Assembly (NCBI RefSeq): GCF_002234675.1
Contig: NC_019868.2
Span: 21,980,743-22,044,742 of the forward strand
Direction of reading: 5' to 3'
DNA from: Oryzias latipes
Lineage: Eukaryota; Chordata; Actinopteri; Beloniformes; Adrianichthyidae
Length of the DNA stretch: 64,000 nucleotides
The notes under the pieces were generated by a model. That model did not search any database and was not told where the DNA came from. It saw nothing but the letters and a program-made list of their open reading frames with translations. The position numbers and the translations under genes were made by a program. How positions within the stretch are numbered: position 1 is the stretch's first letter; each line of letters starts with the position of its first letter. This document shows positions 32,386-48,183 of the stretch, in pieces.

Positions 32386-34879
32386 TATTTCGGCTGGCTT
32401 CTTGGCTGTGGTTTTAACCGCCTCCATCTCCAGCTCACAAGAGTGAGACTTGTCCTGCAGCTCACTGGTTTGTAGTGAAACTTTGTCAGGTAGAATTCAC
32501 AACAGTGTCCTGGAGAAAATGTTGGATTGTTCTGCTCCACCTACCGGTGGGATTTTCAGGCTTGGGATAAGCTCAAAAAAGTTTCCAACTTTGTGTAGTG
32601 TTTATAAAAAAAATTATGTATTTTTGGTTTTGTTTTTTAAATATTTTTTGCGTAAAAGCAACGCCATAAAAGTTTTGATTAAAATGTCTTTAGAATAAGT
32701 GTGTGTGGGTGTATAAAAGCACAAATAATCGTGAACGAATCTGCTTTCCAACATTTAAAGAGTTTTTTTTTCTATTCATCATGTTTTATATATAATTTTT
32801 ATGTATTTTAAACAGAATTTCTGTAGGACGTCATTAATTGATCATAGTTTTGGAGATGTTAGATTACCAGACTCTACGATGCCCTTTTATGGATAAAGAG
32901 TTTTCATGTACAGTCCAGGTCAGAACATACCAGACACTGACAGGATTCAATCACATTCCGATAAGGAGAGATCTTAGGAATATAAGTAATGATTTATTTG
33001 TGATACAGAGAGATGTGTAGAAATGGGCAAATACATAAATCTTGGGTGAGTTGGCTGATGACGTCTTATGGACCAGGTCATTCCAATGCATCATTCGTGG
33101 TGGACGGAGGAGGGCCAGCAAAGCCTTCTGGAATGTGGAGAAGGAAACATCCATGACTGTAAAGGTGATTGGCTAAGAAGAATGGCAGGCAATTTAGTTA
33201 TGGGTCAGAATGACTGCATATTGTAATAACAGCAGCACACAGTTCCTAGAAGTGGGGTAGATCTTCCTAATTGGAATTACGCCAAAGCTTAATCGGTGTT
33301 CTCTCCACATGAAGCACAGAAATATGTAACAGGATGATAATTAAATAATTCTTAGTACTCCAAACATCAATGCCAAAGACGTGGATGTACGGGGGAGCTG
33401 AAATGCTGGTCAACAAAGAGGACATGTCAAGCCTCCTTTTAGAAAACCAGACCCATCTAAAACAGAAAGCTTCTTGTGAAACAGAGAGCTGTTCTTCTGA
33501 TAAAGAAAGAGTTCACTGTGTTTTACTCCTAAGGCCTAAAACGCCCGAATAAATGGATCTCAAATATCTTTATGATTGGTGTCAACATCTCTGGTTTTGT
33601 AGTTTCTAACATCAGCTGATGCAAGCTAGAATAGATCTTTATTTGTCATTGTCATACGTACAATGAAATTAAAAGGGCTTCCTGGTCAGTGCAACATTCA
33701 TACCTTTAAAAAAAATAACTTACTACTAAAAATGATACATAAAACTACATAAAAAGTGCTTCAATATGCGTTAAAATGGTTAAAAACCAGAGAAATTATA
33801 ATAAAAATAGTTGATGAAGAAAACTTCAACAGTATCATAGTTTTTAAGAAGACGTCCAGGTTTATTCCTTGGTGGGGATAACACGTCAAAATAAGGGTGG
33901 GGTCATCTAAGATAGCACAAGGGTTAAGGCAGTTGGATAAAAACTGCTGGATAAAGCTGAGATGTTTTCCATCCAACAGTGACATCCTGTCTGATTACTG
34001 TGGAAGTTCCATGTTCCTTACAAATGTTAGATTAGTAAATGTAGCAGTGGGTTAAGTTTTTAACATTTCTAGCCTCTTTTTTTCCTATTCCCTACTGTTG
34101 AGGAAAAATGCTATATGACAATTGAATAACAGCATGTAATGTGACTAAGCAAATCAGCCTTTATAAGCACCAGTTAAAAACCTCAGAGTACATCCCATAA
34201 AAAAAATCCTGAATAATATTAGTCTTGAAACCTCACCAGATGCATTCATAGGTTTAAAGTCATGGAATGAAATAAATTTTCATAGTACCTTTGTAACTTC
34301 TCCTGAAACCAAACAGGATGTTTAAAAAAGCACTATGTGAAGAATTTCAGTGAGAAAAAACTGCCACAAAGTGAGAGTAATACCACCTGTTGGCCACTAG
34401 ATGGAACTGTAGTGCAGAGGAGAGGAAGGCTTTGGAATTCTCCAAGCAGCCCTCATCACAGGAAAACGTAAAGAATTTATTTTTATTTTTTCTGCCACAG
34501 TTTTGTCTCACTTCTTCAAAAAAAAACAAAAAAAACAAAGAAGCTGTCAACATGTAAACACCAAAAGTTTGTAAAGCTGATTAGACTCTTTAAAGAAACT
34601 TTACCCTCATAGCAAATGAATGGGACTTTGATGAGTAGGAAAGAGAAGCTTTTCCACTATAGCAAACCTTTTTTTTGGTCCCTGTTTAATATAAAGCAAT
34701 ATTTACCGTATTGGGTGTCTAGACGTCTGTTTGGACTACACAGAATCTCAAATTCTGCTAAATTCCTTTGTAAGGAGCTGTAAGAAAAAATGCTTTTTAA
34801 ATTTAGGAGGTGAGGCTTCAACTTTGAAATCCTAGCTAGAACTTTATAGCAAAATGGTCTAGCAATGAAAATTGACATA
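32386..34879. other. psmd10 3' UTR and intergenic spacer
   Basis: The 3' UTR probably ends just after ATTAAA (32,678-32,683). The remainder has no recognisable exon. A common fish repeat phrase, TTTATTTGTCATTGTCATAC followed by GTACAATGAAATT, lies at about 33,640-33,670. A one-ended piggyBac-like MITE remnant lies at 33,880-33,923. Confidence 0.5.
33880..33923. repeat. One-ended remnant of the piggyBac-like MITE
   Basis: The right end GATAGCACAAGGG is followed by TTAA (33,924-33,927), as in the 26,392-26,450 copy, and is preceded by GGGTGGGGTCATCTAA. The left terminus is not recognisable. Confidence 0.5.
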
Positions 34880-36119
34880 CACTGTATTCCTATAGTCGCT
34901 CACCCATCCAAATGATCAGAATCGGGTGTCCTAATCACTTGGCCTGGCCACAGGTGTATAAAATCAAGCACTCAGACATGCAGACTGGTTTTTTTTCTTA
35001 AACAAACATTTGTGAAAGAATGAGCCGCTCCCAGATCAGTGAATTCCAGCACGGAACTCTCACAGGATGCTACCTGTGCAACAAATCCAGTTGTGACATT
35101 TCCTCATTCTTGAATAATCCGCAGTCAGCGCTATCATAACAAAATGGAAGAGTTTGGGAACAACAGTAACTAAGCCACGAAGTGGTGGACCACGTAAACT
35201 GATGGAGAGGGGGCAGCAGATGCTGAAGCAAATTGCAAAGAGATCGCCGACTATCTGCACAGTCGATTGTTACAGAGCTCCAAACTTCATGTAACCTTCA
35301 GATTAGCCCAAGTACAGCACTCAGAGAGTATCATGGAATGGGTTTCCATGGCAGAGTGAAAAAGTCTTTAGCTGGCTTTTCTTTTTAAGTTTCTGGCATG
35401 TGAACATTAGTGTTGCTCCGTCTTCTTTCTAGTCCTTCTAGCCAGGCTTCCCTTCTGGTGTCTCCCCTTTCTGGGGTCCTTTTCCTCCTATACCCAACCG
35501 GCCGCCACAGCAGCAGCTCCTGGAGGCGCCGATGCCCCCCTAAGCAGCCCGGACGGTACATTTCAGACTGCATTCTGCAGAGTGTGAAGTTTGGTGGAGG
35601 AGGAATTATGGTGTGGGGTTGTTTTTCAGGACTTGGGCTTGGCCCCTTAGTTCCAGTGAAAGGAACTCTGAATGCTTCAAGATACCAAAACATTTTGGAC
35701 AATTCCATGCTCCCAACCTTGTGGGAACAGTTTGGAGTGGGCCCCTTCCTCTTCCAACATGACTGTGCACCAGAGCACAATATAAGGTCCATAAAGACAT
35801 GGATGACAGAGTCTGGTGTGGATGAACTTGTCTGGCCTGCACAGAGTCCTGACCTGAACCAGATACAACACCCTTGGGATGAATTACACCAGAGACTGAG
35901 TACTTCTCCACCAACATCAGTGTGTGACACCACCAAGTATGGAAGAATGGTCAAACACACTCCTTAACCGTGTGGACAGCCTTCCCAGAAGAGCTGAAGC
36001 TGTAATAGCTGCAAAAGATGAACTGACATCAAATTGAACTCTATGGGTTAGGAATGGGATGGCACTTCAGTTCACATGTGAGTCAAGGCAGGTGAGCCAA
36101 TACTTTTGGTAATATAGTG
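34880..36119 (+). mobile_element. Decayed Tc1/mariner transposon, about 1.24 kb
   Basis: The ends CACTGTATTCCTATAG (left) and the reversed right end CACTATATTACCAAAAGT are diverged inverted repeats, and TA precedes the left end. Tc1 transposase is recognisable in pieces. An N-terminal region of about 35,010-35,355 has lost its frame (phrases such as CGAAGTGGTGGACCACGTAA). A C-terminal region of about 35,551-35,960 encodes [23 protein letters not shown] and [11 protein letters not shown], the last two covering parts of the DDE catalytic region. The middle (35,356-35,550) does not match Tc1. The element cannot be active. Confidence 0.9.
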
Positions 36120-37596
36120 TGAGAACAATTGCAAAATAAGGCAGTTCACACACACACAAACAGTTGTGTAGTGTTTGACGAACATGTCTGCAATGTTATG
36201 TGTTTGCATCTGATTGGCATCTTAAAATTAAAAGTGGAAAACTTCAGCTACATTTTATTTATTGCATATGGCATCACAATCCGCCACCTTTAGCTAAATA
36301 TGTAGGTTTTACGTGATTTTGTCTGAATTAAAATTGGCATATATACCCTAAATCACGAGTCTTAGACATCAAATATGTTTTTTTTCTTGTTCACTAGACC
36401 TTGCCAACAGAGCAACTCAATATCTCAATATTTTAGTACAACCGTGTGGTTTCGTCCACTAGGTGGTCAAAGTTTCGCAGTTGGGTTGGATCTCCTGAAA
36501 TGTTACTCTTTAAAACACAATTTTTTACTTTTTATTTTTATTTTTTACAGTTTATCCCTGCACCTGTTGGCACTTTAAATTGGATCCACTTTAAAACGAC
36601 ATTGTTCTCTGCGATGTCGTCTTTTGTGTAAGACTTTTGTGTTAGCTCCCTGCAAAACATCCTTTCAACAACCTCTATTGAGTTGGGTTCCAACTTGTTT
36701 TGAACTACCTAAATCCAATCATGCCACCCCCTCTGCTCAATTTTTACAGTTTCAGTACAATGTACAAATAAATGCTTCTAACGGTTGAAATTGTGTAAGT
36801 TCTTCAAAAAGGCTTTCATGCTCACTTAAATATTAACAGGTGATGTAAAACCAGTCTTTAAAGGGATTAGGCAATCAGCAACACTATATGAAGAACTCTT
36901 TATGTGGAAGTGTTTTCCATTGCAGACTTGTCAGTTTGTTATACTTGTGGGTTTTTTTTCTTCTAAATTTTGCACACGTATTGTTTCCGATATGCCTCCA
37001 CTGATGGTCATGTAGTTTCTTGTACTAGATCCCTTTTCTTATAAAGTTGAAAGAGGACCTTGAAATTTGAAAGGATCAAAAAGCTTTAAATAATAGTGTA
37101 GGACACCCTTTATAACATCAAGTACAGAATAAAATGGCTTGGGATGTCCAATAGGTTCCAAACAGTGGGGCAAAGGCAAGTGATATAGCTTCAGGGTTAT
37201 TTAAGGTTACTTAAACAACACTGCAGTGGTAGTTCACAAGGTGGCAATGGTGAAACTAGCAGCAGCAGTCATATGAAAACTCCAGGCTTGCAGCAATCGG
37301 ATGCCATTTCTTTAAAGAAAATTCAAACCTAGTTTCTTTTAAAGCTGCACATTTATTACCTTTCTAAACAAATTAATGTCATCAGTAATGTCATTTTCAA
37401 AAGGTTAAAATTAAACATTTTCTTGACACTTTCAGAACACAAACTAAATTATAATATACTTCCTTAATAACTAGGATGTGAATGAAAAAGTTGGCATGAG
37501 GTTCTCAAGGAAAATTCCTTCCCAAAGCCCTTAAACATTTACTTGCACTTCCTTAAATTCAGATGCGTCATCAACGTGGGTTTTTTTTCTTAACAG
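36120..37596. other. Intergenic spacer before the XIAP-like gene
   Basis: AT-rich, with no exon, promoter island or transposon end that I recognise. Confidence 0.5.
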
Positions 37597-37683
37597 GCTT
37601 GGTGGCAGACTGTTTCATCAGTTCTTGACTGAAATTTACCTGCTGAAGATCCTTACCTGAAACCTTCAAACAAGAATAGAAAG
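37597..37683 (+). other. Candidate 5' UTR exon of the XIAP-like gene
   Basis: The segment has an acceptor (TTTTCTTAACAG) on its left and a donor (AAGGTAACG) on its right. Read in the phase needed to enter the next exon (39,173) it contains an in-frame stop, so it would be non-coding. It is supported by splice-like signals and position only. Confidence 0.35.
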
Positions 37684-38084
37684 GTAACGTCTTTTGCATT
37701 TTTGTTTTGTTTTCTTATATTGAGTACTTTCCTGAACTGTGCAAATTGCACCATTATTGTAGTTGAGAAAATAGAATTCTTTGGTCTAATCAAAGTACAG
37801 CATAAACTTGGGTTTGAATCTGGCTTTTCAATACATTAGATATCTTTTGGTTTTGATCTTTTAAAATTTTCTACAGGTCTCGATGAAAATGGTCAGCTCG
37901 TGTTTTATAGCCTAAATAATATTGGTATGTGAATATACAAGTTCTGTTGAGGCATGATAATTTCACAGTAAAGGGAAAAAATTGCCATCAAACATTGCAA
38001 ACTATGTATCTTTAAAAAAGCTTCACTTCTCCCGGTGACTGTTATGCAGTCAAGTCCACACAAAATGAGCCTGAAAGGTGCAGA

Positions 38085-38510
38085 AAAATGAATGAATTGT
38101 AACTACGGCAAGCCGCAAGCTCCCTGCTCCGCCACATTCTGATGAATCCACCTGCAGTCAGATAGATCAATACCTTTTTGTTTTCCTCGTCTGAGCTGAC
38201 ATCTTGCTCCAAGTGGATAGCTCCAATATTCCTTGCAATTTTTTGTTGCACTGGTAATGTTCGGTTGGAGTTGTGAGGGGCTGTTAGCATAGAGCTCAGT
38301 TATGGTGAAATGGAGGGGGGAGGGGTTGCTCCGCACCATTATTCCCTTCTAACAACTCAGAGGCAAATTTTTAATGAACTCCTGGCACCCTGCAGATACT
38401 ATGTCCTAGAAAACGACACAGATTATTTTTGATTTAGGCTAAGAACACCGTAATCTTAATTAAAAGACCTCTTGGAACGCTTGTAAAATAGATCAAAAGA
38501 TGAAAGTACG
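38085..38510 (+). repeat. Interspersed repeat family X, copy 1
   Basis: It shares ordered blocks with 39,877-40,313 and 44,755-45,012: CTCCCTGCTCCGCCACATTC, CAACTCAGAGGCAAATTT, and AAAGACCTCTTGGAACGC followed by ATCAAAAGATGA. No inverted ends or target duplication were pinned down. It lies in the proposed first intron of the XIAP-like gene. Confidence 0.65.
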
Positions 38511-39273
38511 TGCTTCACATCTGACTTGTTTGGTATTTTCATTGACCTAGATATGCATAACAATTTAGTTTCAGGTCAAAATTGTTACTTAAACTGTTTT
38601 TTTTTCTTTAACATTTTTTGTTCAAATGTCATTTTTCCCTTCTCTATCAAAATCTGCTGATAATCAGTCTTTGCACCGCTTTATTTTATTTATTTATTTT
38701 TACAACGGTTACTTAGCCGAGACCAGTTGAGTGATGGTAGGAATGCCCTTCAGGCTAGAGGAATAAAAACTGCAGATTGTTATAGGCAAGATTTAGCTTG
38801 GGCGAGGAATTTAAGACCTCCAAAGACTATGTATGAAGTTAGTGAAGATTATCTTACTTTATTATATTTATATTTTTTACATTTATTGCCTCATATGTTA
38901 CTTTTCTTTTTCCTTAAGTTAAGTGTACTTGGCGCTCCAATTCATTACTGTTGAAACCCTCTTGTCTGCTTGTACATTTGTAAATAAAGTTTAAAAAACA
39001 ATGCCAAAAAAATCCATTATCAAATGGAGAAAAAATAAATAAAAAACATAAAAATTGTCAGCATGGTGATCTTTCTTTTTATCTATCTTTTTCATTTTAT
39101 ACTACATCAATGCAGTTTGATGCAACTGAAACATTCATTAGCCTTTTAACCCTTTAAACCTGTTTCTTCTAGGTTTCCTGATCAAGGTGGCCTCTCCTCT
39201 ACCCACATGCTTCTCTGTTTTCACTGACCAAAGAGCAACAGAAGATCTGATCTGTCATTCAAGCTTTGAAGCA

Positions 39274-41386
39274 ATGGTTGATAGGATACCTTGCATTGTG
39301 AAACAGCTCATGAAGAGTGAAAAAGCTCGTCTTCAAACATTCTCCTCGTGGCCTTTTACTGATCCGCAAGATCTGGCTCAAGCCGGCTTCTTCTGTGTGC
39401 GATGGAGCGATCTGGTGCAGTGTTTCTGCTGTGGTGGAGAGCTGAGTGGCAGTGATCTTAAAGATGACGCCTGGAAGGAACACAGCAGAAGCTTCCCCCA
39501 CTGTTTCTTCATTCTTGGTCACAATGTTGGAAATGTACCACTCCAGATGGATGATGAGGGCTACCCTGAGAAAGGATGTCCTCCATGCATGAAGACTTTA
39601 AAGGAGAGGCTTAGCAGCTTTGATGATGTCCAACACCCTGTTGATCCTAAGAAACTTGCTGAAGCTGGTTTCTACAGCACAGGTAATCACATTTCTGGGA
39701 AGGAAAAAGACCCACTCTGATGAAAATTGTGTTTTTGGTGCTTTTAATGTTTTTCTCATGATGGAGGACATATAAAGAAAAGTAAGCTCAACATTGCATT
39801 TCTGAGTATTTCTTTATTCAAATAATTGTGGATCAGAAACAGGTGTAAAAATTCTGTTTAAAAAAACAGCTCATTTGTGATGGAAAAAATGCTCTGGGCC
39901 ACAATGTCCCTGCTCCACCACATTCCGATGTATACACTTGTCTTGATCCATGTGCGTCTTCATTTTCCTCATCTGGGCTGGAATCTGGCTAGCTCTGACA
40001 TTGCTCGTCATTGTTGTTGCACCGGTAATGTTGGGACGGAGGTGTGAGGGGATGTAAGCTAGTGGGAGAGAATGTAAACAGAAAGCTCTCAGCAACAGGG
40101 ATTGGAAGGAGGGGGGCGGGATTGTTCTGCGCCAACAGCCCCGTCTGCAACTGAGGCAAATTTCCAATAAGTTACTGCTGCTTTGTAGAAACTATTTCCT
40201 TGGAAATAGTTTTTTTTTTCATTTTGGTTAAAAAATGGCATTATCATGACTTAAAGACCACTAGGAACGCTTTTGAAATGGATCAAAAATGATTGGATTG
40301 GGTCTTTAATTGTTTTTCAAATGTACTCGTACAGGAAAAGGAGAGGAGGTGTTGTGTTTCTCTTGTGGTGGCGGTTTGGAAAACTGGAAACGACAGCTTG
40401 ACCCTTTCCAACAACATGCCAAACACTACCCAGGGTAAAAAGAACCATCATATTCATTTATCTGTTTTTATACCTTATTTTCCTTTAATTTACATTCAAT
40501 ACTTAACTGTTTTTTAGGTGCAAGTTCCTGGCGACTACAAAAGGTCAAGCATTCATCAACAACATCCAGCTACATAGGCACAAACGGCAAAAAAATAGTG
40601 CTGCTATTATTCGTAATGTAAGTGATATTCTTTTCACTTTTTGTAAAGAATCATATATTCTGCTCCATCGCACACAAAAAGAGGTCTATGACTTTTAAAA
40701 TATTTTACTGCAGAAAAAAGACTCTAGACTTTCTTTTTATATTTAAGTCAGATCAACAGAAACACAACGAAGCAACAAATGAAAATATTATTTTACTTTT
40801 ATAATATTTTTATTTACTTATAATTTATGTCTTAACCAGTTTAAGTGTATACATGGATGGCTGCCTAAAGAATTAAAATTAAATCTAATCTGCAGCACTA
40901 CAGCAAGTTTGTTAAAGACAAAAGTCGTTAACCTGCTGAATTTGTCTCTTTTCCATTTGTTGGTCAATGCTAAGCTTAGTTTTGTAAAGTTTACTTTCAA
41001 ATCTTATTGTCATCAGAGAGTTGTGATTCATGATTCCTCCTTAGATTTCTCAAAATGCTATTTAAAGGGCTTGAGGATTTTAACCATCATCTAGAATTCT
41101 GATTTACAGTACAAACCCAAATACTGTAAAAAAAAAAAAAAGAAGTGAAAGTTTTTTTTTTTTTTGCATTTACATGGGGTGTTGGGAGATGGCATACTAC
41201 ATGCCAGCCGTTTCATTCAGTAATTTTAGTTTCACTGTTTGGTTTCGCCTACACGTTCCGCATTTTGTTTTTACGAGAAATGTATGGTATCCCACTCAGA
41301 CAGGTTAGGTGTGTGAAAGGGAAATATTTGAATTCATAACTGACATGTGGTTGATGTGTTCATCTCTGTAGGTTGCCTCATTGTGA
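39274..41386 (+). CDS. XIAP-like protein with two BIR domains and no RING, 207 aa
   Basis: This is an IAP-family gene in tandem with xiap. Coding exons: 39274-39682, 40335-40434, 40518-40617 and 41372-41386; the sum is 624 nt with all phases fitting. The two middle exons match the BIR3 exons of the downstream xiap in phase, the first of them also in length (100 nt). BIR-A (about residues 14-90) resembles XIAP BIR2 and BIR-B (about 105-185) resembles BIR3; both keep the C-x2-C...H...C zinc ligands. Missing are BIR1, the linker before BIR2 that blocks caspase-3/7, and the RING. The last exon adds only VASL. Relative to human XIAP, W210 is S and H223 is S in BIR-A, and E314 is L, W323 is H and H343 is Q in BIR-B. 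Start chosen: first in-frame ATG in the exon opening at 39,173; an upstream exon could extend it. A 6-codon upstream ORF begins at 39,207. Poly(A) signal at 41,497-41,502. It may be a regulator, or a gene drifting toward loss. Confidence 0.75.
39877..40313 (+). repeat. Interspersed repeat family X, copy 2
   Basis: It lies in intron 1 of the coding part of the XIAP-like gene. It shares with copy 1 the blocks CCTGCTCCACCACATTCCGA, GTTGCACCGGTAATGTT and TGGAACGC/AGGAACGC and the closing ATTGGGTCTTTAA-type end. Same orientation as the other copies. Confidence 0.65.
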
Positions 41387-41496
41387 TAGAAAAATGGAGC
41401 AAACCACTCTAGAACTGGGCATTTTGGATTTCATGACAAGAATGGAGGGCACTCAATCACATCTTTTTTCCTTTAGAACCCCCTTTTTTTTTAAAT

Positions 41497-41502
41497 AATA
41501 AA
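41497..41502 (+). terminator. Poly(A) signal of the XIAP-like gene
   Basis: AATAAA 110 bases after the stop codon of the short IAP gene. It supports a short terminal exon from 41,372 to about 41,520. Confidence 0.5.
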
Positions 41503-41569
41503 AGAAAATAAAAATTTTCCAATTGTGTGACCGTTTTTGTTTTTGTCAGATCAAAATAAAATATGATGA

Positions 41570-42250
41570 AAAGAAAGGTTGTCCATGGTTGTCTTGATTT
41601 TTGTGTTGGATAAAGAAATGGGGAAAGAGGCCAGGAGGTGAAGCCGGCTGAGGCCTATTGAGCGTTAGAGTTACTATCCAGGATGAAACATCCAAGATCC
41701 ACGAATAGAAGCACAAGGCTCCAACCGACAGTGTGTCCTGTGAATGCCCCAAGCAATGGAAAGCAGAGGATGCGATACATTTTATCTTGGGAGGACCATG
41801 GGATGTTCTACTGATATCGCAACCAAATGACTGGAGCCTACAGGTACATCTGTGCAGAATTTGGAGTGGAAACCCCAAGGTCACAAATGGGAAAGCACCT
41901 CTAAAAGTGGCAGAGAATGAGAGAGCTAAGATCCTGTGGGACTCCCAGATCCAAACTGACAAGATGGTCATGGAGAACCAACCAGACACTGTAGAGGTGG
42001 ACAAAGAAAAGAGGAAAGTCTGGAAGAACTGGAGAAAGCTTTAAGGTTAATTTGACGGTGGTGCCTGTGGTTATCCGATCACTCAGGACAGTAACCCCTA
42101 AGGTGGAGGAGTGGCTGTAATGTTAGAAATGACCAGAAGAGTGGCTAAAGCAGATCCCTGGAGAAACATCTCAGTCCAGAAAGGTTCAGTCCTAGGAAAG
42201 ATACTGCACAGAACCCTCAAGCTCCCAGGCCTCTAGTAGAGGACCCAAGC
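41570..42250 (+). mobile_element. Degenerate LINE 3' region (endonuclease-type C-terminus)
   Basis: The frame 41,733-42,044 encodes CPKQWKAEDAIHFILGG, then RAKILWDSQIQTDKMVMENQ and PDTVEVDKEKRKVW. These resemble the C-terminal part of a widespread fish retroelement protein (usual form DKxVMANQPDIVVVDK...VIDVAIP), which I take to be the PD-(D/E)XK restriction-like endonuclease of a site-specific-type LINE. Downstream, out of frame, are traces of VVPVVIGxLGAVTPK (GTGGTTATCCGATCACTCAG) and ISVQK...LGKILHRTLKLPGL. The copy is 5'-truncated and frame-broken. The clade is not certain. Confidence 0.65.
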
Positions 42251-42259
42251 TTGGGTGAG

Positions 42260-43320
42260 AAACTTGCGGGGGTGTGAAAAGAGTGTTTAATTTATACCAT
42301 GTAATTCCCCATTAACCCACATCAAATAAGGGGAAGTTGGATGCTTGCCTTGTCACCTAAACAGCAAGTCTCACTCAGCATGGGGGTTTCTTACCAAACT
42401 GCACAGAAACTTCGTACTTTCCCTTTTTCACTGCTTCTTGAAGTGAATTCATCAAATTGTGTTTGGTGGCTTCAACTTTTTTTCTAGTGGTTTACCTGTA
42501 CTTTTCTGTATTTTTTTTAACCAAAGAAATGTCACTGAAGATTTGTTTGAACAAATGGATGTTTATTAAAACCCTATTTATGACTTCTGCCTAATACTAT
42601 TCCCCTATTCCACATTGGTTATGTTTTGGAAGCTGTTTAAAATGTTTTATTTTTTATTTCATGTGACCAAATGTAAATATATCTAAAGTTGTATAGTTTG
42701 GATGCTGCGTGTCTGACAGGGCAGCCTCACAGCCGGCTGAACTTAAAATGACTCAGAACACACTGAAATTTGAACCACTGTCCCACCAACTTTTCAGAAG
42801 TTAAAGTGTGATCTTAAAGAAAACTGCATCCTTCATAATAAAAGCATAGACTAAAACCCACTTCAAAATATGTGGCATTTTGTATTCTTGCTCCAAACGT
42901 TGAAAAACAGAAAAAAAGCTAAATTTGAATAAATTAATCATATAAATGTCGCATTTGCTTTGAGACATAAGGGACACATTTATAAATGTTTTTTACTCAT
43001 TTAGTTTCTTTTGTCGACAGTGTATTTTACTGATTTTAAACAGCATATTTGTAAGGGAAACCCCCCCTGGGAAGAAAAAAAAAACCTAGAGATTTGCTTA
43101 AAAGTCGCTTTTCGGGACTGCGTGGTTTTTTTTCTCTCTCTTTTTTTTTTCAAATCTACGTTTCAACACATACTGCATAAGTTACAAAAACATATCTTTC
43201 TTTAGCAATAACATCTTCGGGCTTGAGCTGTTAAGCATGTTGAAATTTTTCTGTTTAAGTGACAATGTTTTATATTTTTTTCCATAACGAAACTGAAACA
43301 GAACCTCTGGAATCTTCTCA
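42260..43320. other. Spacer upstream of xiap
   Basis: AT-rich DNA with no recognisable gene, between the LINE fragment and the xiap promoter. Confidence 0.5.
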
Positions 43321-43329
43321 TTGAACCCC

Positions 43330-43640
43330 CACTTTCTTTGCGTAATCGACGATGCGCATGCGCATTGTCAAAGACTACGCTGTTCTTACTTCCTGACTTT
43401 GGGAGGTCACGCCAAAGGAATTCTTCTACGCCGATTTCCTTCACAGGGCGATCTCATCAAGGACCTTTTCAAACCACGAACCGAAGACCTCCCTACACGA
43501 GCAAAGAAATGCAAGTATTTTATGTTTTTAGAGCCGCTGGTAAAGTAATCGCGCGCTTAGCGAACAAGGCTAACTAGCTAGCTAGTCAAATGTTACATGA
43601 AATGTAAACAAACTATAGTTACAGCAAAGGTACGCACTTT
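43330..43640 (+). promoter_or_regulatory. xiap promoter and probable non-coding first exon
   Basis: A CpG-rich segment has a perfect NRF1 palindrome TGCGCATGCGCA at 43,353-43,364. A likely leader exon follows, with a donor-like CAAAGGTACGC at about 43,626-43,636. The next good acceptor is at 45,096, directly before the first coding exon. The exact transcription start cannot be read. Confidence 0.5.
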
Positions 43641-43872
43641 TAAATAATAATTTGACTCCTTATGTAAGATTCCTTTATCCACTGTAAAACACCAGCAGTT
43701 GTCTTTTTTCTTTTATATTAATTTTTAATCCGTGATGTGTAGCCCTTTAAATGATGTGGGTGGAATCTTTGTGAACAGAGCAAAGTATGCAGTTGATAGT
43801 TCGTAGAAACACAACAATGACGGCATACGCATTTGTCGCTCACTGGGCGGTTAGAGATGTTAATTTCAGTTT

Positions 43873-44754: not shown

Positions 44755-45012
44755 CAAATCTGAATGACTGAGGAGGACTGAAGCTAGCAGGAGAACATGG
44801 CAACAGAGAGCCCTCGGCAACATGGAGAGAAGCGGCGTTGCTCCATGCCAACAGTCCAGCCAACAACTCAGAGGCGAATTTCTAATGATCTACTGCTGCT
44901 CTGCAGAAAAATCTGGGCACTTTTTTGGACAAAAATGGCATAGTGGTAATTAGAAGACCCCTGGGAACACTTTAAAAATGGCTCAAAAGATGATCGGAGT
45001 AGGTCTTTAAGT
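44755..45012 (+). repeat. Interspersed repeat family X, copy 3
   Basis: It ends about 85 bases before the first xiap coding exon. Shared blocks with copies 1 and 2 are CAACTCAGAGGCGAATTTCT, ACTGCTGCTCTGCAGAAA, AAAAATGGCATAGTGG and GATCGGAGTAGGTCTTTAAG. It lacks the 5' half of the other copies. Confidence 0.65.
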
Positions 45013-45129: not shown

Positions 45130-48100
45130 ATGATGTGTGACCCCAGCCAAGATGGGAATTGGGAATCGGACTCCACAATTGATTACTCTAAGATAAACAA
45201 TCGTCTGGAATCTTTCTACAACTCCAGCTGGAGCAAGAAGGTGTCACCGCTGCAACTGGCTGAAGCTGGCTTCCTCTTCACTGGAGTCTCTGACCGCGTA
45301 CGCTGCTTCAGTTGCCAGAAAACGGTAGAAAACTGGTCCCAGGAAGATCAACCAGTGGACAGACACATACAGGTAATTGTTTATGTTGAAAAAAAAAATA
45401 GTTTAGAAATGTTGGGCAATTCTTTTTCAACTTTTTAAATAATAAAGTTCAACATTTTCCTTCCATGCAGGTTTCCCCATCGTGCACGTTTCTCCGCTGC
45501 ACACACTTCAACCGTTTTAAGTCAAATCCCCATATGCCCCTCAGCAATGGGGGCCTTCATGATGGAACTGAAGGATATATAGATTACCAGTTGAGAACAA
45601 GAGCCATTGTTGATGAGACTCCATATCCACGGAACCGGAATATGAAAAGCGAAGAAGCCCGCCTGGAAACTTTCTCTTCGTGGCCGCGTTCTGCTCCAGT
45701 CAGACCTCGAGATTTGGCTCAGGCAGGTTTGTTCTACTTAGGAAAGGAGGATAAAGTGGAGTGTTTCAGTTGTGGAGGCAAGCTAAGTGGCTGGAAACCT
45801 GGGGACACCCCCTGGAACGAGCATGAAAAACATTTTTCCCACTGCTTCTACATCCTTGGTCATGACGTGGGAAATGTGCCTCTGGAAAGAGATGGAGGAG
45901 AAAATGAAGAGACTGGCAGCAGAAACCAACATCGCACACCTGTCAATTTGGAAAATCTTGACGAGCGACTCGGCACTTTTGCACGCGTCCAGCACCCGAT
46001 TGACCACGAGCTGCTTGCTAAAGCTGGCTTCTACAGCAAAGGTAAAGCATGTTTGTTCAAACATCCCCTTTACAAATGAGATGTACCGGTAATATTTTAA
46101 TTTTTCTAAATCTAAATGTTTGTTCATAATATTTTTTTATTATTATTCTAGGAGAAGGAGACGAAGTGATCTGTTTCAGATGTGGTGGTGGTTTGAAAGA
46201 TTGGGACCCTGAGGACAATCCTTGGGAAGAACATGCCAAATATTATCCTGGGTAAAAACCTCCAGCTTTGCTTTTTCCCATAAAAGAAGGATTATGTATT
46301 CGTATAACCCTTGTGCTATCCTATGGGGTCAAGATGGCCATTGACGTGTTCTCCCTACATGACAAAGGTGGACAAAGGTGGAAAGATTTCATGTAATCCA
46401 TAGACACCAGTGAAGATCACAAATCATTGAAGAAAAAAGGTTCAGCTCACTGTCTAGTGGGTCTAGATGACCCAACTCCCAACGTTAACGTGCCTAGGAT
46501 AGCACAAGGGATGTAAGTGTATTTATGTATGTATCTTACATCCTTTTTTTTAAATTCCATTTTAGATGCAGCTTTCTTTTATCAGAAAAAGGCCAAGAGT
46601 TTGTTAATACAATTCAGCTACAAGAACCTAAATACTCACAACAGGTAAGGCATATTATTTCCCCTCATTTAAGAAATCTGTTTCTGAAGCTTCTTCACTT
46701 CCCTAGTTTTTGTAGAAATTGTTTTTTTTTTTTTAAATAAAACAAAGAAGGTTTATTTTGTATTATGCCTAGCCTATTCTCTGTTAAAGAGTTGGTGGGG
46801 GAGTGTGTTTAAAACAAAAGCTGTTAGACGTTTCTCATGAGTTCAGACAAAAGGATTTACAAAAAGTGATGATGTGACCCTTTTGTTTCCAGGCTTCAGA
46901 ACATCAAAATGGATTTTTTGAAGAGGAGAAAGGTAAATATTCTTGGATATGTATCTAAATCTAAAAATGTACACTATGGTATTAGTTAGCTGAACCTTTT
47001 GAGAAGGAGAACCTAAGCCAGGGGTCTGCAACCTTCAGCACTTGTAGAGCCAATCAGGTTAATTTTTCACTTACCGGAACCCAGTAGGAGCCATAAAAAG
47101 ACACTGATTTGCATTCATGTTATTGTTACTATTATTGTAAATATAAATCAAGTTGTGGATTTTTCACAGAAATAAAACAGTCATAAAGATAAATTTGTTT
47201 GAAATAGTGAGAACTTTTAACAGAGGTTTACATGACTTCCTTTCAAGATAAAAGACTCTCTGTACCACATATGATCATCTTAATGTAACAAATGTTGTTG
47301 TAGGAATTGGGATGTCAGCAGTGATTAAAAAACAACAACTATACACTGTTTAATTTATTGTTGTTTATACCTCTCAGCCAGAAATTTGTAAAAATCTAAC
47401 AAGCTAAAATGAAACTAGATTTTTGACCCTATGGCGCACTTGCAATTGTTGAATTTTGTTCAATAATAATCTCTTCTAGTCTCAGCGTGCCTTAAGTATG
47501 AATTCTGGTTGTGTTTACTGACCTCCAGCTGAATTGCTGTGGTCAAATCGTTTCAAACGTTAGACGATTTTGTTTTGATTGATGTATCGTATGGTCTAAA
47601 GAATGTTACTTTTTAAAATGAAAAACATTTTAGTATTCTTCAATATGAGAGCCACAAAGGAGGGGTCAAAGAGCCACATGTAGCTCCAGAGCTTCAGGTT
47701 GCAGAGCCCTGACCTCAGCTCAGTCATTTGTTGGGGTTAAATTAAAAGTCAAAAAACATTATCTTCTGCAATTTTACATTAATTACATACGAACTGGGCT
47801 GACAAATAATAGAAAACATTGAATTTTCAAGCATGGTCTAAGCAGTACGGCAGAGTTAAAAAAAAAAAAGAAAAAAAGTAGGATGCCCAGACCATGACCC
47901 TGCTGCACCCCCCTGTGGCCTGCTTGGGCTCTTACAGTTAGAGATTGTCACAATTGGGACCGTGGAAAACTAACCCTTTCTTTTTTCAGTTGAGAACCCT
48001 CTAGAGGAGCTGGAGAAGCTGCGGCAGGAAAAGCGCTGTAAAATCTGCCTAGACGAGAACGCGTGCATCGTCTTCATCCCATGTGGACATCTGGCCAGCT

Positions 48101-48183
48101 GCAAGGCGTGTTCCAATAAGCTCAACCAGTGTCCCATCTGCTGTGCAGCTATAGCACAGAAAATCCGGACCTTCATCGCTTAG
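45130..48183 (+). CDS. xiap: X-linked inhibitor of apoptosis (XIAP), 408 aa
   Basis: XIAP is a cytosolic E3 ubiquitin ligase that inhibits caspases and supports RIPK2/NOD2 signalling. Coding exons: 45130-45372, 45471-46041, 46152-46251, 46566-46644, 46893-46932 and 47990-48183; the sum is 1,227 nt with phases joined. BIR1 is at about residues 24-92 (CFSC...H...C), BIR2 at about 141-212 and BIR3 at about 243-320 ([11 protein letters not shown]...HAKYYPGC). The C-terminal C3HC4 RING (about 360-408) is CKICLD, PCGH, CKAC and CPIC. The linker before BIR2 keeps [18 protein letters not shown], like human [20 protein letters not shown]. Between BIR3 and RING only about 30 residues remain, so the UBA of human XIAP (497 aa) is absent. 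W323 is Y and H343 is Q. The first ATG of an ATG-ATG pair is taken. Adjacent stag2 matches human XIAP-STAG2 linkage. Poly(A) signal at 48,513-48,518. Confidence 0.94.
46308..46510. mobile_element. piggyBac-like MITE in xiap intron, 203 bp
   Basis: The ends CCCTTGTGCTATCCTA and TAGGATAGCACAAGGG match the short copy at 26,392-26,450. The TTAA flanks are not intact here (TATAA on the left, ATGT on the right). The interior contains a repeated GACAAAGGTGGACAAAGGTGG phrase. It lies between the second and third BIR3-region exons of xiap. Confidence 0.75.
47019..47711. mobile_element. Non-autonomous hAT transposon in xiap intron, 693 bp
   Basis: The inverted ends CAGGGGTCTGCAACCT and AGGTTGCAGAGCCCTG have one mismatch-type difference. 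The flanking 8-bp duplication is ACCTAAGC against ACCTCAGC (47,011-47,018 and 47,712-47,719), one base apart, so the insertion is older than the other hAT copies here. No transposase. Confidence 0.85.

Follow-up and report, generated by a model that had tools for sequence, protein, structure and literature searches.

XIAP is an inhibitor of caspases that, in immune signalling, also assembles ubiquitin chains. It carries three BIR domains followed by a C-terminal RING (BIR1-BIR2-BIR3-RING), and the human protein has a UBA as well. A BIR3 that binds peptides with an IAP-binding motif (IBM) is marked by W310 together with an acidic residue at position 314 (human numbering here and below), E314 being the amine anchor. 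A truncated XIAP duplicate is known in primates: BIRC8/ILP-2, a retrogene that encodes a single BIR together with a RING. NAIP (BIRC1), which has further NOD-like receptor domains, combines tandem BIRs without a RING. Here we describe a locus of the medaka, Oryzias latipes, at which a truncated copy of xiap (hereafter, the copy) lies in tandem with xiap itself on one strand. The window, that is, the whole stretch of DNA that was analysed (C10:21980743-22044742; 64,000 nucleotides), holds in order what we take, from open frames judged by eye, to be acsl4-like and psmd10-like genes, then the copy, xiap and a presumed stag2-like gene. The stop of the psmd10-like gene, upstream of the copy, lies near 32.38 kb.

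With the neighbouring xiap (XIAP/BIRC4) the copy has in common BIR2 and BIR3, the positions and phases of its introns, the zinc ligands, the V147-D148 pair and W310. It differs from xiap, and from the XIAP architecture, in having neither BIR1 nor RING, and carries W210S, H223S, E314L, a deletion of residues 177-179 and a basic C-terminal tail. When set against BIRC8/ILP-2 as that gene is commonly described, both are truncated XIAP duplicates, but the copy is tandem and intron-bearing, with two BIRs and no RING. The best sequence match of the copy in the PDB is NAIP/BIRC1, which reflects the shared tandem BIRs without a RING and not a closer kinship. A gene at 15.83 Mb of C7 in the same genome, which we take to be birc7-like, has a BIR2-BIR3 type pair like the copy and is 46% identical to it. 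Unlike the copy (W210S, H223S, E314L and W323H), it retains W210, H223, D214, W310, D314 and W323. Whole-genome protein and BIR-family searches (734,051,031 bases in 25 contigs), in which the best candidates were scored so that counts are lower bounds, list the copy, xiap, the birc7-like gene, one birc2-like gene and another two loci with BIRs; a second locus for the copy is not among the candidates listed. Searches of viral and prokaryote contigs, a set in which fish genomes are not expected, found no relatives of the copy, and an NCBIfam search of it returned nothing. Among the literature matches listed (papers, mostly by title and the start of the abstract), none deals with a tandem xiap duplicate of a fish that is without a RING, which hints weakly that the copy is new.

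The features of the locus, in window positions, are as follows.
39173..39273, plus strand: probable 5'UTR portion of the first coding exon, tracing to the xiap BIR1 tail and linker (acceptor and local alignment).
39274..39682, plus strand: coding exon 1, with the ATG, the V147-D148 equivalent, the whole of BIR2 and the start of BIR3; ends in phase 1; 54% identity to xiap.
39313..39540, plus strand: BIR2 domain, zinc ligands intact; W210S and H223S, residues 177-179 deleted, L207, D214 and E219 kept (residue table, AlphaFold2, fold match).
40335..40434, plus strand: coding exon 2, the zinc-site half of BIR3; W310, L307 and Q319 kept, E314L, W317F and W323H (109-nucleotide ungapped match of 72% to 46150-46258).
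40518..40617, plus strand: coding exon 3, with the last BIR3 zinc Cys, the C-terminal part of BIR3 and a basic tail peculiar to the copy that contains KRQK; ends in phase 0.
41372..41386, plus strand: coding exon 4, encoding just VASL before the stop codon.
41497..41512, plus strand: two AATAAA signals (41497 and 41507) with a GT-rich stretch behind them, a candidate for the copy's poly(A) site, AATAAA occurring elsewhere in this AT-rich stretch too.
43100..43799, no strand assigned: CpG-rich stretch (CpG o/e 1.22 and 0.92), the probable xiap promoter, downstream of the copy.
45130..48183, plus strand: xiap, six coding exons (45130-45372, 45471-46041, 46152-46251, 46566-46644, 46893-46932 and 47990-48183) encoding BIR1-BIR2-BIR3-RING, 408 amino acids.

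A sequence-only reading of this DNA had proposed that four exons of the copy join perfectly in frame and preserve every zinc ligand of both BIRs. Both points hold. Exons 39274-39682, 40335-40434, 40518-40617 and 41372-41386 join into 624 nucleotides, 207 codons followed by TGA, with GT/AG borders at all three introns and no frame break, and residue comparison finds 8/8 of the Cys/His ligands (CCHC in each BIR). The start codon stands in the context GCAATGG. Pfam places PF00653 (BIR) on two stretches of the product (126.8 bits, E 4.8e-37, above the curated cut-off) and no RING family, compared with three BIR stretches and a RING on the xiap product. The KRQK in the basic tail, which we take to resemble a nuclear-localisation consensus, has no counterpart at the end of xiap BIR3 in the alignment. 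Structure prediction covered BIR2; BIR3 is split by introns. With eight BIR rows AlphaFold2 gave pLDDT 84.2 and pTM 0.74, although one of these rows (L010:4167-4472) adds just the beginning of a further BIR, followed by a tail that is largely unaligned; with two rows there was no confident fold (pLDDT 35.7). The best fold match of the predicted domain is XIAP BIR2 itself (4kju; E 1.1e-8, TM 0.82, 49% identity).

The copy is 53-55% identical to xiap over the joined exons, and the intron positions and phases of the two genes agree; together these exclude a chance resemblance. Among 196 aligned codons there are 65 first-, 50 second- and 105 third-position differences. In a five-sequence tree the copy groups with the same fish's xiap (support 99), against human XIAP, and not with birc7 or birc2, so that its earlier description as a tandem paralogue of XIAP is borne out. 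The protein branch of the copy in this tree is 0.73 compared with 0.33 for xiap, corresponding to about twofold faster change. Fish and human separated some 430 million years ago. If the xiap lineage is used as a clock, a rough inference from a single short alignment would put the duplication near half of that age, which predicts orthologues in many other teleosts.

The acceptor of the copy at 39172/39173 (TTCTTCTAG/GTTTCC) resembles that of the xiap BIR1/BIR2 exon at 45470/45471 (TCCATGCAG/GTTTCC). Since the first coding exon starts at this acceptor, as in xiap, one or more further exons must precede it in the copy's transcript. The 101 bases that lead up to the ATG align locally to xiap with a score of 47.5, compared with a shuffle mean of 32.4 (4/500 shuffles reach 47.5); with the acceptor included the score is 62.5, whereas none of 200 neighbouring stretches exceeds 54.5. 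Global alignment of 39173..39273 with xiap did not rise above shuffles. The third codon of this segment in xiap's frame is a stop (TGA), which would halt translation from BIR1 into it in the ancestral frame. However, the copy's own frame is open back to 39142, and a longer N-terminus may therefore arise via some further 5' exon. We searched 32400-39273 and 40618-43300 by tblastn, using as queries the complete xiap protein and, separately, its exons for BIR1 and RING; the best E was 0.14. Across the entire window the two exon queries had matches at E <0.01 solely in xiap and in the BIRs already known from the two genes. With two BIRs in Pfam and no BIR1 or RING exon beside it, the copy is the BIR1-less, RING-less paralogue that had been proposed.

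One alternative would restore the RING by splicing. The end of copy exon 3 (40617) and the start of the xiap exon at 46893 are both in phase 0, and joining the copy's first three exons to the last two of xiap gives a frame that is open through the RING, so a fused transcript encoding an alternative BIR2-BIR3-RING ligase from these tandem genes on one strand could be made. We regard this as very improbable, because a chance in-frame join is expected in about one third of cases, the copy has a stop exon and AATAAA signals of its own, and xiap is preceded by a CpG-rich stretch of its own, located downstream of the copy. Homology between copy exon 4 and the xiap exon 46893-46932 was not significant. 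No exon encoding a UBA lies between BIR3 and RING in the xiap gene model, whose exons 46566-46644, 46893-46932 and 47990-48183 join in frame.

We then considered whether the copy has been maintained by selection. Pairwise comparison with xiap gave dN 0.36 and dS 2.15 (NG86) or dN 0.34 and dS 1.22 (LWL85). A free four-taxon branch-wise codon model was rejected, as it could not separate omega values of 0.2 and 1 on the copy; it is uninformative owing to saturation, and leaves the copy free to take a neutral branch much shorter than that of xiap. As linked copies that arise in one duplication are expected to have matching neutral branches, we imposed an equal-age constraint that forces them equal, on the assumption that linked copies share age and mutation rate. 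Under this model the copy had an omega of 0.29 and xiap one of 0.18, each a single value for all sites, with synonymous sites near saturation and other medaka family members as outgroups. Fixing the omega of the copy at 1 was worse by 13.1 lnL (2dlnL 26; p 3e-7), whereas equating it with that of xiap cost 1.4 lnL (p 0.09). It was below 1 in 60/60 bootstraps (95% range 0.12-0.45), and stayed between 0.22 and 0.39 in seven fits (F1x4, F61, either outgroup removed, BIR2 or BIR3 alone), with dlnL against 1 of 4.0-18.4. In neutral simulations (substitutions only, no indels; 4000 runs per start), the probability of having no stop at 0.2 substitutions per site was 0.005-0.009, and that of keeping all 8 ligands about 0.018. 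Sites invariant in the other four sequences tell a similar story: the copy has lost 6/55 (G193, W210, H223, T271, D296 and W317), and the same fish's xiap also 6/55, none of them at the groove positions considered. The corresponding losses are 3/52 for the birc7-like gene, 5/54 for the birc2-like gene and 4/53 for human XIAP, three of the latter being gaps from cropping. The losses of the copy were not significantly concentrated in the groove (2/8 groove sites compared with 4/47 others; Fisher p 0.21). An omega of 0.29 with the value 1 rejected, together with invariant-site losses equal to those of xiap, indicates a gene constrained over its history and not merely decaying. The marks of a pseudogene (no constraint, disabling changes) are not seen: frame and splice sites are intact and omega is well below 1. 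Thus the suggestion of slow decay gave way to the equal-age test, with the reservation that its omega is an average over the copy's history, to which a recent loss of function is invisible. Judged by sequence, the copy is a real, old, constrained and truncated xiap paralogue within the known BIR/IAP family.

It is this reservation that leaves room for a recently disabled gene, long constrained and now silent or non-functional, with the intact frame as a remnant. Such a gene would account for the faster protein evolution, for an omega above that of xiap in 58/60 bootstraps, for G193R and the three-residue loop deletion, and for the lack of a CpG-rich promoter before the copy, where windows over 36500-39299 reach a CpG o/e of at most 0.52. 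The last observation may equally mean that expression of the copy is tissue-restricted, or that there is none. Against it, the frame is free of stops and shifts and its splice sites are intact; under neutrality, roughly every second simulated run has already acquired a stop at 0.02 substitutions per site; and the history-average omega is far below 1. Moreover, with birc2 removed the omega of the copy (0.22) is no higher than that of xiap (0.25). We therefore consider a dying gene unlikely.

The peptide grooves of the two BIRs are partly altered. BIR2 has W210S and H223S, with L207, D214, E219 and W217 kept; G193R and the deletion of the loop residues 177-179 are unusual changes. BIR3 has E314L, W323H and W317F, with G306, L307, W310 and Q319 kept; of the pair that marks an IBM-binding BIR3, W310 is present and 314 is Leu. 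All four replacements named in the sequence-only reading (S, S, L and H for W210, H223, E314 and W323) were thus confirmed, but W323H is weak evidence: the same fish's XIAP has Tyr at position 323, and the human BIR2 counterpart of this site is a His (H223). Indeed, since the fish XIAP itself has D314, E319, Y323 and Q343, human XIAP is no fair yardstick for position 323. The linker that blocks caspase-3/7 was said to be absent; its part upstream of V147-D148 is gone, but residues V2-D3 of the copy align with V147-D148. According to PMC3068168, human XIAP loses caspase-3/7 inhibition through D148A/E219R/H223V in BIR2 and caspase-9 inhibition through E314S in BIR3. Type II (IBM-binding) BIR2 domains are defined by E219 and H223 in PMC3944466, in which H223V abolishes Smac binding; the copy keeps E219 and has Ser at 223. 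The proposal that the copy cannot inhibit caspases or bind Smac by the usual route is therefore supported as to W210, H223 and E314, at or near which human mutants lose Smac binding or caspase inhibition in these papers, and less so as to the retained W310, L307 and Q319.

Those retained residues mean that the BIR3 of the copy may still bind something. It might hold Smac- or caspase-9-type peptides weakly through W310, L307 and Q319, acting as a sponge for peptides and so freeing or protecting XIAP. The presence of G306 as well, and a His at 323 that mirrors the natural His of human BIR2, would suit such a role. Yet E314 is Leu, BIR2 is without both W210 and H223, and a human BIR3 with E314S cannot inhibit caspase-9 according to PMC3068168, so we think a residual IBM binder quite improbable.

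Part of the groove contacts for RIPK2 is kept in the copy and Smac-specific contacts are lost, which suggests a decoy: its BIR2 would bind RIPK2, be blind to Smac, and block XIAP in NOD1/2 signalling. L207, D214 and E219 are retained and 211 is acidic (Asp). In PMC3944466, L207P, D214S and E219R abolish RIPK2 binding of human BIR2 and H223V, at the site lost from the copy, raises it. A ripk2-like gene in the genome (C17:13.78 Mb) keeps R41, N133, N137, K209, E279 and S282. On the other hand, N209 is Gly and the Y176/H178 loop is reduced to T176 followed by the deletion of 177-179; in PMC10485824, mutation of the RIPK2 contacts N209, E211, D214 or Y176 ends binding, and Y176A ends the human complex. 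The same fish's XIAP is itself without Y176, N209 and E211, and fish RIPK2 has Q36 and S285; as these contact sites differ from the human ones, the human interface may not apply. A RIPK2 decoy is thus a long shot on present residues. So, too, is the wider idea of an ancient, fish-specific, Smac-blind and RING-less built-in dominant-negative of XIAP in NOD/RIPK2 or other BIR2-dependent immune signalling, which, if true, would mean that the immune-scaffold surface of XIAP has been separated from its caspase function.

The reading we prefer, and to which we give about an even chance, is that the copy is a genuine coding gene from an old tandem xiap duplication, cut back at both ends, whose BIR2-BIR3 product would act as a non-catalytic competitor. 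After the duplication BIR1 would have been lost, leaving its tail in what is probably the 5'UTR, and the coding sequence would have come to stop short of any RING. The resulting small protein, its zinc fold presumably preserved by purifying selection, would dock on one or more XIAP partners through the retained surface, namely the D214/E219 acidic floor and L207 of BIR2 and W310, L307 and Q319 of BIR3. In this way it might compete with or temper XIAP-dependent ubiquitin signalling. A competitor is favoured over a caspase blocker because the copy is without a RING and probably poorly sensitive to Smac-type peptides. We infer its expression, partner and competitor action from sequence, the partner and the competitor role being guesses from residues. 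A constrained natural paralogue without a RING and without part of each peptide pocket would be a natural test, set by evolution, of which BIR surfaces are important apart from caspase inhibition and, if expressed in a laboratory fish such as medaka, the copy would be open to direct knock-out.

Finally, we noted several minor features of the locus. The fish XIAP (45471-46251) differs from the human protein at caspase-9 and RIPK2 contact sites, including S176 and K211 besides D314, E319, Y323 and Q343. Upstream of the copy, an exon-like stretch at 37595-37682 is flanked by an acceptor and a donor, as judged by eye, and is a possible 5' exon. A relic at 35000-36100 carries a frame that by eye resembles a Tc1/mariner transposase, and a 111-codon open frame between the copy and xiap (41709-42044) resembles, again by eye, a relic of a LINE-type retroelement. 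Related repeat stretches lie upstream of the copy (38360-38503), in its first coding intron (40153-40293) and upstream of the first coding exon of xiap (44862-44993).
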